A stretch of DNA of 43,505 nt from Clostridium sp. 1001270J_160509_D11. GTDB taxonomy: Bacteria; Bacillota; Clostridia; Peptostreptococcales; Peptostreptococcaceae. The translations under genes were made by a program, and so were the position numbers. Location: contig NZ_JADPET010000004.1 of NCBI RefSeq assembly GCF_015667935.1, positions 1-43,505 of the forward strand. Direction: 5' to 3'. Shown here piece by piece: positions 19,279 to 39,048 of this stretch (within the stretch, counting starts at the first letter, position 1; every line of letters starts with the position of its first letter). Below the pieces are notes generated by a model. That model was not told the DNA's origin. It did not search any database and saw nothing but the letters and a program-made list of their open reading frames with translations.

Positions 19279-20562
19279 TTAATTTTCAAATGGACTCTTT
19301 ACAATGCTTATTTTATCATCTGTTTTTATAAGTTCAGATGTATTTTTATAAGATTGTTTTAGATAACTTTGATCTATATATGTTGTTTTTTCTAATATAT
19401 TATCGGCAACAGGTATTATTTCATAAACGCTTTTGCCACTAGATTCGTATTTATTTACCCAAGTTGGTATACAAGTAACTTTTTTAACTTTAGCTTCATT
19501 ATTACCTTGTTTTTCGATATTTATATCTACCATAAGACCATCTTCTGTATACATGCTTATATATTCTCTTCTTTGGTTAGATATATAATTTCCTAAAGAA
19601 TAAATAACAAGTGTTTCATTTTTACCATCAGTTGATTTTATTGTCTCTACAGGTTCTACAACATGAGGATGAGATCCTATTATAATATCGACTCCAGCAT
19701 CACATAACTTTTGAGCTAATTTCTTTTGAAAATTATTAGGTGTTCTGCTATATTCATCTCCCCAGTGAATTATAACTATTTGCATATCTGTATCATCTTG
19801 ATATTTTTTAACAGTAGAATAAATTGTATCAAATGCCTTATTTACATCAGAAGTATCAAATACATTCATTAAATCAGTTTTATCACTAGAAACTTTTATA
19901 CCATTTAAATATTTTGTTCCATTTTTAATTTCTCCATAAGTATAAGATGTAATGCCAAGTTTTATATTGTTTACATTTTCTATTATGTAATCATCATCTG
20001 ATGTTTTTTGACGAGTACCTACAGTATCAAATCCTTTTGATTTTAATGTAGATAAAGTACGTTCAACACCTAAGCTAGACATATCAAAACTATGATTATT
20101 GATAGTTGATAATAAGTCAAATCCAGTATCTTTTAATGCATCTGCAAGTGAATCTGGCGTATTAAATGTTGGATAAGAACTGTAATTATATACATCATTA
20201 CCAGCAAGTGTAGTTTCTAAGTTAGCTATTGCTAAATCTGCTTTTTGGACATATTCTTTTACGTATTTATAATTATTTTCAAAAGAATATTGTTTTGTGC
20301 TCGGATTATATTGTGCATCAAGTTGAGGTGAATGAGCCATTACATCACCACATGCAATTAGAGATGCGCTGTAAGTTTCATTATTTTGTGATTAAGTTAA
20401 TTCAGTAGTTTTATTTACTTTAGCAACATTATCCCCTTTATTAAATGATTTAACTCCAGCAACAATAGCAACTAAAAATACTACTAAAGCTGCTAATACA
20501 ATTGTTAGATTTTTACGATTAATTTTTGATTTTTTTTTCTTTTTATTTCTGTTACTTCCCAT
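19279..20562 (-). pseudogene. CapA-family metallophosphatase-like protein, split by an in-frame stop
   Basis: Read through, this is one 427-codon frame: an N-terminal Lys-rich segment (MGSNRNKKKKKSKINRKN), one membrane anchor (LTIVLAALVVFLVAIVAGV), a linker, then a CapA/PGA_cap-type domain with ACGDVMAHSPQLD, AIANLETTL, STINNHSFD, IIHWGDEYS and IIGSHPHVVEP, whose Asp, Asn and His residues are the metal ligands of this family. Codon 57, in the linker, is TAA (20392-20394). The next in-frame ATG (20340) is the Met of GDVM, so a restart product would lack the anchor and the first metal-binding Asp. The anchor fragment has a good GGAGGG site and promoter. The locus is therefore probably inactive unless the stop is read through or is a sequence error. 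CapA-family proteins act at the cell surface; the substrate here is unknown. Confidence 0.85.
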
Positions 20563-33299: not shown

Positions 33300-35939
33300 A
33301 TGAAAAAAATGGGTTGCAACGAGATTAGAAAATCTTTTACAGATTTCTTCGAATCTAAAGGACATTATGTAGGTAAGAGTTCATCTTTAATACCAAAAAA
33401 CGATAAAAGTTTATTATTAATAAACTCAGGGATGGCTCCACTTAAAAACTATTTCTCAGGAGTTGAAGTTCCACCAAGAAATAGAATGAGTACAGTTCAA
33501 AAATGTATAAGAACGGGAGATATAGAAAACGTAGGTAAAACTGCAAGACACGGTACATTCTTCGAAATGATGGGTAACTTCTCATTTGGAGATTACTTCA
33601 AAGAAGATGCTATAAAATGGGCTTGGGAATTCGTAACTAAACATTTAGAAATACCAGAAGAAAAAATATGGGCTACAGTATACTTAAATGACGATGAAGC
33701 TCGTGACTTATGGTTAAAATACTCAACTATACCACAAGAAAGAATAGTTAGATTAGGAAAAGACGATAACTTCTGGGAAATAGGATTAGGACCATGTGGA
33801 CCTTGTTCAGAATTATACTATGACAGAGGTGAAGAATACGGATGTGATAATCCAGATTGTAAACCAGGATGTGACTGTGATAGATACTTAGAATTCTGGA
33901 ACTTAGTTTTCACTCAATTTGATAGACAAGAAGATGGAAGTTATCCAGAACTTACTCATAAAAATATAGATACAGGTATGGGTCTTGAAAGAATAGGTTG
34001 TATAATGCAAGGTGTTGACAATATATTCGAAGTTGACACTATAAGAGCTATAATAGATGAAATAGAAAAAATATCAGGTGTTAAATACGGTTCAGATGCT
34101 AAAAGTGATGTATCAATAAGAATAATAACTGACCACATAAGAGCAACAAGCTTTATGATAGCTGATGGAATACTTCCATCAAACGAAGGTCGTGGATATG
34201 TTCTTAGAAGATTATTAAGAAGAGCTGCAAGACACGGTAAATTATTAGGAATAAAAGAAGATTACTTATACAACTTATTTGATGTAGTTAAAGAAGTAAG
34301 TGGAGAAGCTTATCCAGAACTTATAGAAAAAGAAGGTTACATCAAAAAAGTTATAAAAATAGAAGAAGAAAAATTCAATGAAACTATAGACCAAGGTAGT
34401 GAAATACTAAACGGATATATAGAAGAATTAAAAGCAAACAACGAAAGTACATTAGCTGGAGAAAAAGTATTCAAATTATACGATACTTATGGATTCCCAA
34501 TGGACTTAACTCAAGAAATATTAGAAGAAGTTGGATTTGATTTAGATGAAGAAGGATTCAACGCAGAAATGGATAAACAAAGAGAAAGAGCTAGAAGTGC
34601 AAGAGGAAATATGGAAGGTGAAAGCTGGAAAGAAGATCCACTTTCTACATTAGACGCTTCAGTAGCATCTACTTTTGAAGGATATAAACATTTATCTACT
34701 ACAGGAGTTGTAACTGCTATAGTTAAAGGTGACGAAATAGTAGACACTATAACTGAAGGTGATGAAGCAGTAATAGTACTTGATAGAACTACTTTCTATG
34801 CTGAAGGTGGGGGACAAGTAGGTGACTCTGGTATATTAGAAAACGAAAATGCATTATTTGAAGTAATAACTACTAAAAAAGGTGCAAACAATACAATAAA
34901 ACACATAGGTGTTGTTAAAAAAGGTAGCATAAATACTAAAGATGCATTAAAATCATTAGTAAATAGAGAAATAAGAATGGCATCAGCTAGAAACCATTCA
35001 GCTACACACTTATTACACAAAGCTTTAAAAGAAACTTTAGGAGAACATGTTAACCAAGCTGGTTCATTAGTAACTCCAGATAGATTAAGATTCGATATAA
35101 CTCACTTTGAGCCAATATCAAAAGAAGAGTTAGATATAATAGAAAGAAAAGTAAATGACGTTATTTTACAATCTCTTGATATAGAATGTGAAGTAATGGG
35201 AATAAACGAAGCTAAAGAAAAAGGGGCAATGGCTCTATTTGGTGAAAAATATGGAAATGAAGTAAGAGTTGTATCTATGGGAGATTATTCTATAGAACTT
35301 TGTGGTGGTACTCACTTAACAAACACTTCTCAAGTAGGATTATTTAAAATATTATCTGAAGGTGGAGTAGCAGCTGGAGTAAGAAGAATAGAAGCTATTA
35401 CAGGAAGAAGCGTATATGAATACTTAAATTCAAGAGATGAATTAATCGAAGAAGCATGCTCTGCATTAAAAACTAAAGAAGATAACTTAGTAAATAGAGC
35501 ACAAGCTATAGTAGAAGAAAATAAATCTTTAGCAAAAGAACTTCATGAAGTAAAAGCTAAAATGAGTTTACAATCAGCTGACAAACTTATGGATTCAAAA
35601 GTTGATATAAATGGAGTAAGCTTACTTACTGCAAAATTTGAAGATATGGATATGAATTCATTAAAAGAAATGGCAGATAATTTAAGAGATAAATTACAAA
35701 GCGGTGTAGTAGCTATCTCTAATGTTAGTGATTCTAAAGTTAACTTCGTAGTTACAGCAACTAAAGATGTTATAGAAAAAGGAATTCACAGTGGAAACAT
35801 AGTAAAAGAAATAGCACAAATTGCAGGCGGTAAAGGTGGCGGAAGACCTAACATGGCTCAAGCTGGAGCAACTGACGCTACAAAAATAGATGAAGCTCTA
35901 AGCTATGCTTGTGAGGTTATAAAAAGCCAAATAAAATAA
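33300..35939 (+). CDS. alaS: alanyl-tRNA synthetase
   Basis: Class II synthetase charging tRNA-Ala, 879 aa, full length. The N-terminal catalytic domain has MGCNEIRKSFTDFFESKGH, LLINSGMAPLKNYF and GTFFEMMGNFSFGDYFKEDA. The editing domain has the zinc-type HSATHLLHKA (His near 566) and CGGTHL (near 667). The C-terminal C-Ala domain ends GGKGGGRPNMAQAGATD. An insertion with several Cys (GCDNPDCKPGCDCDRY) lies near residues 180-196, as seen in some bacterial AlaRS. AGGAGG lies 9 bases before the ATG. It is controlled by the T-box upstream. Confidence 0.98.
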   Translation: MKKMGCNEIRKSFTDFFESKGHYVGKSSSLIPKNDKSLLLINSGMAPLKNYFSGVEVPPRNRMSTVQKCIRTGDIENVGKTARHGTFFEMMGNFSFGDYFKEDAIKWAWEFVTKHLEIPEEKIWATVYLNDDEARDLWLKYSTIPQERIVRLGKDDNFWEIGLGPCGPCSELYYDRGEEYGCDNPDCKPGCDCDRYLEFWNLVFTQFDRQEDGSYPELTHKNIDTGMGLERIGCIMQGVDNIFEVDTIRAIIDEIEKISGVKYGSDAKSDVSIRIITDHIRATSFMIADGILPSNEGRGYVLRRLLRRAARHGKLLGIKEDYLYNLFDVVKEVSGEAYPELIEKEGYIKKVIKIEEEKFNETIDQGSEILNGYIEELKANNESTLAGEKVFKLYDTYGFPMDLTQEILEEVGFDLDEEGFNAEMDKQRERARSARGNMEGESWKEDPLSTLDASVASTFEGYKHLSTTGVVTAIVKGDEIVDTITEGDEAVIVLDRTTFYAEGGGQVGDSGILENENALFEVITTKKGANNTIKHIGVVKKGSINTKDALKSLVNREIRMASARNHSATHLLHKALKETLGEHVNQAGSLVTPDRLRFDITHFEPISKEELDIIERKVNDVILQSLDIECEVMGINEAKEKGAMALFGEKYGNEVRVVSMGDYSIELCGGTHLTNTSQVGLFKILSEGGVAAGVRRIEAITGRSVYEYLNSRDELIEEACSALKTKEDNLVNRAQAIVEENKSLAKELHEVKAKMSLQSADKLMDSKVDINGVSLLTAKFEDMDMNSLKEMADNLRDKLQSGVVAISNVSDSKVNFVVTATKDVIEKGIHSGNIVKEIAQIAGGKGGGRPNMAQAGATDATKIDEALSYACEVIKSQIK

Positions 35940-36012: not shown

Positions 36013-36273
36013 ATGGATAGAAATTTAGATTACACAATGAAATTTGAGGGTATATCAGAAGAAAAACTGAGCATAAAAGAAACTTTACAATATGTTTATG
36101 AAGCATTAGAAGAAAAGAAACGTTATGACCCTATTGACCAAATTATAGGATATATACTTTCTGGGGACTCAAGCTATATAACAAGCAATAGAAATGCAAG
36201 AAGCATAATAAAAAAATACGAAAGAGATGAGTTATTAAAAGAACTATTAAAAAGCTATCTATCAAAAGAATAG
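36013..36273 (+). CDS. ireB: IreB family regulatory phosphoprotein
   Basis: Small protein of 86 aa (formerly DUF965). In Enterococcus faecalis IreB is phosphorylated on N-terminal threonines by the PASTA-type kinase IreK and restrains cephalosporin resistance. Here LDYTMKF near the N-terminus offers Thr8 as the likely target, followed by the conserved VYEALEEKKRYDPIDQIIGYILSGDSSYITSNRNAR. A GGAGGGC site precedes the ATG. Its usual place between alaS and ruvX is kept, but here a large membrane-protein gene is inserted before ruvX, 42 bases downstream. Confidence 0.93.
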   Translation: MDRNLDYTMKFEGISEEKLSIKETLQYVYEALEEKKRYDPIDQIIGYILSGDSSYITSNRNARSIIKKYERDELLKELLKSYLSKE

Positions 36274-36315: not shown

Positions 36316-38520
36316 ATGAAGAAAAAATTAATATCACTTTTATTATCACTAATGGTAATTTTAAGTTTTTCTATGTCTAGTGTATATGCTGACACCAACC
36401 AACAAGGAAAAATAATATATATTAGTTTAAATAGAACAAGCTTAGAACATTTACTTGAGATACCTATAATACAAAAAAAGACATCTGATAGTGGTTATGT
36501 TGCCCTTATGACTACTCGTGGTGATGGATCAAATAGTGATCAAAAATCTTTTGCAAGTATAGGTGCAGGTGTAAGAGCTAATGTTTTAGACCAAGATTAT
36601 ACAATATTTGAATCTTTAGATAAGGATGGAAAGGAACAATTTAAAGCTGTAACAGGCGCAACTCCTTGGGCTATCAATAATCTAAGAATAAATAGAGATT
36701 TAAATCAAAACTCTGATTATGGAAGTTATGGTGCAACTCTTGGTACTTTAGGAACAACATTAAACGAAAATGGTTTAAAAGTTGCGCTTCTTGGAAATAG
36801 TGATATAATCAAAAACGGTGAACTTAAAAAGATAAGAAATCTAGCTTTAACATGTATGGATAAGTATGGTAGAGTTAAATCTGGAAATGTCGACGACATA
36901 AATAAAAATGATAATACTATGCCATATGGTATCTCAACTGACTATGAAAAACTAAAAAAAGAGACAAAAAAATATTATGAAAACAGTGATATTACTTTTG
37001 TTGAACTTGGAGATACATACAGATTAGATGAGTTTAGAAAAAATCTAAACGAAAATACTTACAAATCTATGCAAGACGAAATATATAAAAGAGTTAGCGA
37101 TTACTTGACAGAAGTCTTTGATATGGTAGGTGAAAATGATACTGTATATATAGTAAGTGAATTCCAAAGTAACTTAGATAATCTAAATAAAAGAAGATTA
37201 GCGCCAGTTATGAAGTTTACAAAAGACGGATATGGCCTGTTAGAATCAGCTACAACTAGAAATAACGGTATAGTGAGTAATATCGATATAGGTGTAGATA
37301 TTTTAAATGAATTTGGAATAAAAAATGAGTTAATGATAGGAAAACCATTTAAAACTGTACAAGCTGAAAATGGAATCGAAAAACTGACAAATGACTTTAA
37401 GAGAATTGTCTCAATAAACAGCATAAGAGCATCAGTTGTAAACACTTATGTAGGAATAGTATCTGCATCATGGGTTATAGCTATGATAGCATTATTATTT
37501 AAAAATAAAATACCTAAAAAAGAAAAAGGTCTAGGTAGAGACCAAATATTTAAAATTCTAAAAGAGTTTATAAAATTAGGACTTATAATGCCGTTAGCAT
37601 TTTTAACTGCACCAATATTCCAATTTAAAACTCAAACTGGATTAGTAACAGGAGTATTAATAGCAACAATTATCTACTACGTAATAGGATCTACAGTATT
37701 TAAAAAGGATGATATTAAACAAATGGGATTCTATGCGTTTTTAACAATAGGATTGATTATACTTGACTGTATAATAGGAACTCCACTTATGAAGAGCAAT
37801 ATAATGAGTTATGATGCTATAAATGGAGCTAGATATTATGGCGTAGGTAACGAATATGAAGGTGTTACTATCGCAAGTGCTGTATTTGCATTAGCTGTTT
37901 TATTAAACTACAAAAAAATACCTAAATGGTTAGCAGTCGTATTATCTATAATTATACTAGTTACTAGTGCGATGCCTTCAATGGGAGCAAATGTTGGAGG
38001 GGCTATATCAGAATGTGTAGCTTATTTATTATTTATACTTCTTATATTTGATGTTAAGTTAGACTTAAAGAAAATAATTATGATAGGAGTAGCTACAGTA
38101 TTAGTTGTTGTAGCATTTGCAGGATTAGATTTCTTAATGGGAAGTGAATCTCATTTATCAGTATTTACTAATCAAATAATTCAAGAAGGTCCAGCAGCTA
38201 TAATCAATACATTTGGAAGAAAAATACAAATGAATATGAAGTTAGCTAAATCAAGTGTATGGGTAAATATACTAATTGTAAGTATTGTTATAATTGGAGC
38301 TCTTATATTTAAACCATCTGGATACTTCAAAAAAATCCATGACAGATATCCTATGATATTTAAAGGATTTATGGCTTCATTTGTAGGATGTATAGTAACA
38401 TTACTAGTAAATGATTCAGGAATAGTAGCTGCATCTACAGCGGCGATTTATATACTAATTCCTCTTATAATAATTAGTATTAATATGAGTTTATTTGATA
38501 AAAATAAAGATACAGAATAA
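36316..38520 (+). CDS. membrane protein with degenerate alkaline-phosphatase-like ectodomain
   Basis: Unnamed protein of 734 aa. A signal peptide (residues 1-25, ending SVYA) precedes a soluble part up to about 370 and then roughly 11 membrane segments. The soluble part resembles alkaline-phosphatase-superfamily proteins: IIYISLNRTSLEHLL, SFASIGAGVRAN, DITFVELGDTYRLDEFRK, TVYIVSEFQS, APVMKF and GIVSNIDIGVDILNEFGI. Key catalytic positions look changed: the metal Asp after the first strand is Asn (SLN), and the usual SDHG is SEFQS. The membrane half has GARYYGVGNEYEG and SAMPSMGANVGG, motifs I recall in related multi-membrane proteins of unknown function. It may bind rather than cleave an envelope precursor; this is inference. 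It lies between ireB and ruvX with a terminator after it. Confidence 0.75.
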   Translation: MKKKLISLLLSLMVILSFSMSSVYADTNQQGKIIYISLNRTSLEHLLEIPIIQKKTSDSGYVALMTTRGDGSNSDQKSFASIGAGVRANVLDQDYTIFESLDKDGKEQFKAVTGATPWAINNLRINRDLNQNSDYGSYGATLGTLGTTLNENGLKVALLGNSDIIKNGELKKIRNLALTCMDKYGRVKSGNVDDINKNDNTMPYGISTDYEKLKKETKKYYENSDITFVELGDTYRLDEFRKNLNENTYKSMQDEIYKRVSDYLTEVFDMVGENDTVYIVSEFQSNLDNLNKRRLAPVMKFTKDGYGLLESATTRNNGIVSNIDIGVDILNEFGIKNELMIGKPFKTVQAENGIEKLTNDFKRIVSINSIRASVVNTYVGIVSASWVIAMIALLFKNKIPKKEKGLGRDQIFKILKEFIKLGLIMPLAFLTAPIFQFKTQTGLVTGVLIATIIYYVIGSTVFKKDDIKQMGFYAFLTIGLIILDCIIGTPLMKSNIMSYDAINGARYYGVGNEYEGVTIASAVFALAVLLNYKKIPKWLAVVLSIIILVTSAMPSMGANVGGAISECVAYLLFILLIFDVKLDLKKIIMIGVATVLVVVAFAGLDFLMGSESHLSVFTNQIIQEGPAAIINTFGRKIQMNMKLAKSSVWVNILIVSIVIIGALIFKPSGYFKKIHDRYPMIFKGFMASFVGCIVTLLVNDSGIVAASTAAIYILIPLIIISINMSLFDKNKDTE

Positions 38521-38535
38521 ATTTTTCTGAAAATC

Positions 38536-38570
38536 AAAAATTAGTCAGGATTAACCTGACTAATTTTTTT
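38536..38570 (+). terminator. strong intrinsic terminator after the membrane protein gene
   Basis: Perfect 14-bp stem AAAAATTAGTCAGG (38536-38549) with CCTGACTAATTTTT (38555-38568), 5-base loop, T run. Confidence 0.95.
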
Positions 38571-38622
38571 AAGACAAAGCTAAACTAAATATACGAATAA
38601 TTAATTGATTAAGGAGAACAAT

Positions 38623-39048
38623 ATGTTAGATGGAAGAATAATGGGCCTAGATATAGGTGACAAGACAATAGGAGTTGCTGTAAGTGATATAATGGGTATA
38701 ACAGCACAAGGTGTAAAAACTATAAGAAGAGAGTCTAAGAAAAAAGACATCGAAGAATTAAAAAACATAATAAAAGAAAGACAAGTAAATAAAATTGTAT
38801 CAGGTCTTCCAAAAAATATGAATGGTACTTTAGGACCACAAGGAGAAAAAGTTTTAAAATTCTGTGATTTAATAAAAGAAGAAACAGGATTAGAAATTGA
38901 TTTTTGGGATGAAAGATTGACAACAGTAGCAGCAGAAAGATCTCTTATAGAAGGTGATGTAAGCCGTAAAAAGAGAAAAAAAGTAATAGATATGTTAGCT
39001 GCAGTAATAATATTACAAGGTTATTTAGATAGCAAGTCAAAATTTTAA
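38623..39048 (+). CDS. ruvX: YqgF/RuvX-type pre-16S rRNA nuclease
   Basis: RNase H-fold nuclease; in E. coli YqgF matures the 5' end of 16S rRNA, and the family is also called putative Holliday junction resolvase. The 141 aa contain [16 protein letters not shown] with the first catalytic Asp, [28 protein letters not shown] with Glu, and [14 protein letters not shown] with Asp. The frame is open from 38605, but AAGGAG at 38610-38615 places the start at the ATG at 38623. A 22-bp palindrome and a DUF1292 gene follow. Confidence 0.95.

Follow-up and report, generated by a model that had tools for sequence, protein, structure and literature searches.

What does a secreted domain of the alkaline phosphatase type do once its metal site is gone, and what does the large membrane protein that carries it have to do with the neighbouring ireB? 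Both questions are raised by a 734-aa protein encoded in the window, the 43,505-nucleotide stretch of Clostridium sp. 1001270J_160509_D11 analysed here. The host belongs to the Peptostreptococcaceae, the host family throughout the text. A sequence-only reading described the protein as a pseudoenzyme ectodomain fused to membrane helices, perhaps an envelope sensor or transporter linked to IreB.

Gene and Protein

The open reading frame is uninterrupted, starts with ATG and begins with a signal-peptide-like segment (MKKKLISLLLSLMVILSFSMSSVYA). Twelve homologues from Peptostreptococcaceae share 52-92% identity with its product, and it is therefore a real gene, called X below; the closest named homologue, at 92%, is from Intestinibacter bartlettii, and the source genome carries one copy of the family. 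Searches of Pfam, NCBIfam, PHROGs and PDB sequences with the window protein returned nothing useful, literature searches found no paper on the gene, and no relative turned up among the viral contigs scanned. Elsewhere in the window, a gene on the opposite strand (19279-20340) encodes, by eye, a look-alike of CapA-type poly-gamma-glutamate synthesis proteins.

Table 1. Features of the locus, in window coordinates, with residue numbers of the X product.
Feature	Position	Strand	Remarks
alaS	33300..35939	+	First gene of the probable alaS-ireB-X unit
ireB (IreB/ReoM regulatory phosphoprotein)	36013..36273	+	Pfam IreB, E 2e-31; T8 phosphosite in DYTMKFEG
X (family protein gene)	36316..38520	+	734 aa: signal peptide, pseudo-alkaline-phosphatase ectodomain, 11-TM membrane half, predicted GT-C_B-like
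Ectodomain, residues 30-350	36403..37365	+	Predicted alkaline-phosphatase superfamily fold (hhalign, VIA, weak Pfam matches in homologues)
N39, first metal Asp position (iPGM D12)	36430..36432	+	D in 42/65, N in 20/65 homologues
D233-x-x-R236	37012..37023	+	Invariant pair; D233 at or near the iPGM D403 position
SEFQS, 281-285	37156..37170	+	At the place of SDHG; family consensus S-P-x-P-S
NIDIGVDILNEFGI, 322-335	37279..37320	+	DIAPTIL element of the superfamily; D324 conserved in 98%
Membrane half, residues 366-727	37411..38496	+	11 helices; predicted fold GT-C_B-like (WaaL/SEDS)
GARYYGVGNEYEG, 504-516, outer loop	37825..37863	+	R506, Y508, N512, E513 invariant; aligns with R...NPN of O-antigen ligases
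SMGANVGG, 555-562, outer turn	37978..38001	+	At the SRGA place of O-antigen ligases, without its Arg
Long outer loop, 605-646	38128..38253	+	Predicted helices carry the invariant H613 and R635-K636; corresponds to the WaaL/RodA loop whose Arg binds Und-PP
NDSG, 699-702, last outer loop	38410..38421	+	N699, D700, G702 invariant in 65 homologues
Terminator-like hairpin, then T-run	38541..38563	+	Between X and ruvX; extended stem -16.1 kcal/mol
ruvX	38605..39048	+	Next gene beyond the terminator

The Secreted Domain

The secreted half had been assigned the alkaline phosphatase fold from its strand order, and structure prediction and fold comparison agree with that assignment. A family profile of 89 members was aligned by hhalign with 13 phosphoglycerate mutases at a probability of 96% (P 2.6e-9). 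The fold is present in the full-length AlphaFold model, which is of moderate confidence (pTM 0.58, 13 close sequences as input), and the modelled ectodomain matches the mutases in VIA with a Z of 18.7 over 223 residues at 3.4 Å. Phosphopentomutase and the periplasmic domain of PbgA/YejM are among its best Foldseek matches, and homologues give weak Pfam matches to SGSH_C, Sulfatase and Metalloenzyme. For PF00884 (LtaS/sulfatase), no match above the cut-off was found with the window protein, and the best E value in homologues was 0.015. Because profile, model, Foldseek and weak Pfam matches agree, a secreted alkaline-phosphatase-superfamily fold is the supported prediction for the N-terminal domain, which shares this fold and a detectable profile homology with 2,3-bisphosphoglycerate-independent phosphoglycerate mutase.

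Residue conservation was read from 65 representatives with less than 70% identity to each other, taking iPGM D12, D403, H407, D444, H445 and H462 as the two-metal site and iPGM S62 as the nucleophile. Both substitutions reported earlier, Asn for the first metal Asp and SEFQS for SDHG, are found in the window protein (Table 1). Columns 282 and 283, the places of the SDHG Asp and His, hold mostly Pro and Phe, Thr or Tyr, with neither Asp nor His among the residues listed for the 65 representatives. The same set has no conserved His anywhere in the ectodomain, and column 75, that of the nucleophile Ser/Thr, is not conserved (P, D, T, Q, A, E, S or R) in a stretch where the alignment is weak (P 0.002). 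The iPGM metal ligands still present are position 233, an Asp in all 65 that was placed on D403 through the preceding strand in a gapped part of the hhalign alignment, and, in part, position 39 (Asp or Asn). No full metal site was found at other positions in any homologue; its loss is a property of the whole family and is not peculiar to the window protein. Across the family, the protein thus differs from the enzymes of the superfamily in having neither the two-metal site nor the nucleophile. Since the SDHG Asp and His are absent across 65 divergent homologues, we regard the ectodomain as a pseudoenzyme domain, as first proposed, rather than an LtaS-like transferase.

The fold of the ectodomain would agree with an active transferase of the LtaS, EptA or OpgE kind, moving phosphoglycerol, phosphoethanolamine or phosphate; in Gram-positive bacteria, LtaS itself has its sulfatase/alkaline-phosphatase fold on the outside of the membrane. 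The family protein, however, has neither the catalytic metal site nor the Thr of LtaS, and its ectodomain precedes the helices, a different domain order. With SDHG lost in 65/65, no conserved ectodomain His and no conserved Ser/Thr at the position of iPGM S62, we consider an active transferase highly improbable and rejected it. What the ectodomain does conserve, among the 65 representatives, is a set of invariant residues (D233, R236, S311 and T314) and the near-invariant D324, which suggests that the pocket has been reused.

The Membrane Half

Beyond residue 378, and in addition to the signal peptide, the hydropathy of 89 homologues marks 11 membrane segments, in line with the earlier count of about 11 helices; the basic loops come to lie inside and every conserved polar residue outside. 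The sequence strings that had been singled out, NIDIGVDILNEFGI (322-335) in the ectodomain and GARYYGVGNEYEG (504-516) and MGANVGG (556-562) in the membrane half, are all in the protein. Nine residues, R506, Y508, N512, E513, H613, R635, K636, N699 and D700, are strictly invariant in 65/65 representatives. A family that has no known function and no annotation could also be a conserved membrane scaffold that neither catalyses, senses nor transports anything, but charged outer-face residues kept this strictly in very divergent sequences make such a role unlikely.

A likeness to O-antigen ligases was noted from the motifs alone, ahead of any fold result. The ectodomain filled the fold searches made with the full-length model, and the membrane half was therefore modelled alone (pTM 0.80). 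Its top VIA match is WaaL (7TPG; Z 10.8, 251 residues, 5.6 Å), and ranks 2-8 are held by seven RodA/FtsW (SEDS) entries (Z 8.0-9.9), followed by a gap to 6.5; by the tool's own warning, a Z below about 13 for helical bundles can reflect a common arrangement. For comparison, Meitil et al. (PMC10920833) report a superposition of 7TPG on a same-clan GT126 polymerase at 5.3 Å over 192 residues. None of the Foldseek matches to the membrane half reached significance (best E 0.2).

The earlier suggestion of a transporter is weighed against the same searches. A transporter or flippase for an envelope precursor would be in keeping with 11 helices, with invariant charged residues near the outer face and with weak Foldseek matches of the membrane half to ABC, MFS and similar proteins. 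Those matches, however, lie at chance level (TM-scores around 0.1-0.2), no MATE, MFS or ABC transporter ranks above WaaL and SEDS in VIA as a structural relative, and hhalign similarity to MATE is nil. We consider transport quite unlikely.

Helices and loops between the Arg loop and the C-terminus succeed one another just as they do in 17 Wzy_C proteins. The Arg loop leads through a TM to a basic loop and through the next TM to the SRGA/SMGANVGG turn; one more TM brings a short inner loop, another the long outer loop with its conserved Arg, and the last three TMs are separated, in this order, by a basic loop and a short outer loop. Seven helices and their loops match the order in WaaL, the totals being 11 and 12. 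An hhalign comparison of the membrane half with 30 Wzy_C proteins gave P 0.007 (controls: MATE 0.26, reversed 0.06), in a register that sets GARYYG-NEY on R..Y-NPN and GGAI on RGAW. Adding more distant members did not improve the membrane-half score and brought no helpful Pfam match. Among 12 diverse members there was no match to Wzy_C (PF04932) at E<=1, and neither they nor the window protein matched FTSW_RODA_SPOVE (PF01098). This profile similarity to Wzy_C is suggestive only, too weak to serve as proof of homology.

The conserved residues can be set beside those of known enzymes. RodA and WaaL bind undecaprenyl diphosphate through a conserved Arg on a short helix of the outer loop (PMC10449877), and the equivalent loop of the family protein has R635-K636 on a helix in the model. 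The catalytic set of WaaL 7TPG comprises the Und-PP arginines R191 and R265 and the acceptor-activating H313; the family has invariant R506 and R635/K636 in its conserved-Arg loops. The SRGA Arg, probably R191, is missing, and the His of the HN motif is not matched position for position, with H613, E513 and D700 as candidate bases. An equivalence of R506 with WaaL R191 was considered and dropped, as the residue spacing fits the SRGA Arg better. Because the SRGA Arg is missing and the catalytic His is unmatched, we do not file the protein under GT121.

The best fold match, WaaL (CAZy GT121, Wzy_C PF04932, with TacL as a Gram-positive example), shares with the family a conserved Arg in the outer loop ahead of the common helix run and another in the long outer loop. 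It differs from the family protein in that the latter has a shorter long loop (42 against about 75 residues), no Wzy_C profile match, no SRGA Arg, no HN His that can be placed, and an additional N-terminal pseudo-alkaline-phosphatase ectodomain. SEDS RodA/FtsW (GT119), the second-best folds, share an outer-face acidic residue and a conserved Arg that sits on a helix of the long outer loop, whereas the family protein has no Pfam match to them, no SEDS signature, and an hhalign similarity that does not fall in a meaningful region.

Genomic Context

In the window, ireB lies 42 bp upstream of X on the same strand, so that the adjacency described earlier stands. The order alaS-ireB-X-ruvX is near-constant in the host family, with X sometimes present as two tandem copies. 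X probably closes an alaS-ireB-X transcription unit, because the ireB-X gap in the host family is short (usually 7-17 bp), no terminator separates the two in the host-family loci examined, and a terminator-like hairpin follows X in most of them. Such a predicted arrangement is evidence of co-expression, not of interaction. In C. difficile, IreB is phosphorylated on T8 under the control of PrkC (PMC9674922; PMC8730811), and this Thr is also present in the IreB of the window.

The family extends well beyond this unit. Of 398 genomes sampled across the phylum, profile searches found it in 235, and it occurs in all 60 sampled genomes (23/23 genera) of Peptostreptococcaceae; strong matches came from 39 of 245 genomes of the class, counted among the matches listed. 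Across 40 loci from diverse families, ireB stands at -1 in seven, and a GT4 glycosyltransferase gene stands at +/-1 on the same strand in 21 (and at positions 2-7 in two), with gaps of -89 to 113 bp and often overlapping. No GT4 neighbour was found in the ireB clade, to which the window gene belongs, and no ireB neighbour in the GT4-linked clade. When 89 members are placed on an unrooted tree, those linked to ireB cluster, with one truncated contig among them, opposite those linked to GT4; the fork that separates the two sides is weak (74%). The suggested link to IreB is strengthened in the host family by the conserved probable unit and the hairpin behind X.

These distributions bear on the sensor, the part of the earlier suggestion that we keep as a rival. 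In a sensor of the PbgA/YejM kind, both halves would bind a lipid-linked cell-wall precursor and signal to IreB/ReoM without catalysis. PbgA is a Gram-negative protein that acts on LpxC degradation; like the X product, it is a membrane protein with an extracytoplasmic domain of alkaline phosphatase fold, tied to envelope control, and it is this domain that appeared among the best Foldseek matches. In PbgA, however, five helices precede the ectodomain, whereas the family protein has the reverse order, 11 helices and a GT-C_B-like predicted membrane half. The probable operon shared with ireB throughout the host family favours a sensor, as does the control of MurA degradation by ClpCP through the IreB homologue ReoM (PMC9674922). 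Shared transcription alone is nevertheless weak evidence, since alaS-ireB-ruvX is a housekeeping neighbourhood; the GT4-linked clade does without ireB, and the invariant residues resemble an active site more than a signalling surface. On balance, a sensor is unlikely. A mixed version, in which a Gram-positive counterpart of PbgA would use a GT-C_B-derived pocket and the pseudo-phosphatase to read the supply of undecaprenyl-linked precursor and set MurA stability via IreB, strikes us as distinctly improbable.

Proposed Function

With moderate confidence we favour a GT-C_B-like glycosyltransferase acting on an undecaprenyl-linked envelope glycan, with the pseudo-phosphatase as a docking, gating or regulatory domain. 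This explanation is placed above both sensor and transporter because WaaL and SEDS head the fold list, the topology and motif order match, and one clade has a GT4 context. From these observations we infer catalysis, a substrate, the part played by individual residues and any regulatory tie to IreB. The protein would be a polytopic enzyme of the ligase or polymerase type at the outer face of the cytoplasmic membrane, with an undecaprenyl-diphosphate-linked envelope glycan as its putative substrate. R506 and R635/K636 may hold the diphosphate, and one of E513, H613 and D700 may activate the acceptor. The secreted domain, having lost its two-metal site, would serve in docking or gating of the acceptor or donor.

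The family is unnamed in Pfam and NCBIfam, and yet over half of the genomes sampled from the phylum, and every one sampled from the host family, encode a member. If it is a GT-C_B enzyme, it would represent a missing step in how clostridia and their relatives assemble cell-surface glycopolymers, and an example of a dead phosphatase domain put to new use. The unit shared with ireB would offer a direct way to test a coupling of wall-polymer assembly and PASTA-kinase signalling.

Tandem Copies and Divergent Homologues

In five sampled loci a second family copy directly follows the first, before ruvX (L003:8444-10621, L005:8290-10458, L007:8224-10392, L008:8250-10430 and L015:7303-9483), while the window holds one copy only. 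In one assembly of Clostridioides mangenotii TR (L012:6001-8180), the first copy is broken in frame by a frameshift or an assembly error. Paralogues also occur away from ireB in the host family: one genome has a second paralogue (L228:7552-9729) near, by eye, ClpC-, RadA- and DisA-like proteins, and another has two more in tandem (L230:6831-11483) after what looks like an SH3-like secreted protein. Two short and very divergent homologues of 655 and 602 aa (L236:785-2749 and L237:939-2744) have a reduced ectodomain and retain R-x-Y-G..N, GG and ND-x-G in the membrane half. Another homologue, 1009 aa long (L239:918-3944), carries an N-terminal sodium/calcium exchanger domain (Pfam Na_Ca_ex, E 1.5e-17).
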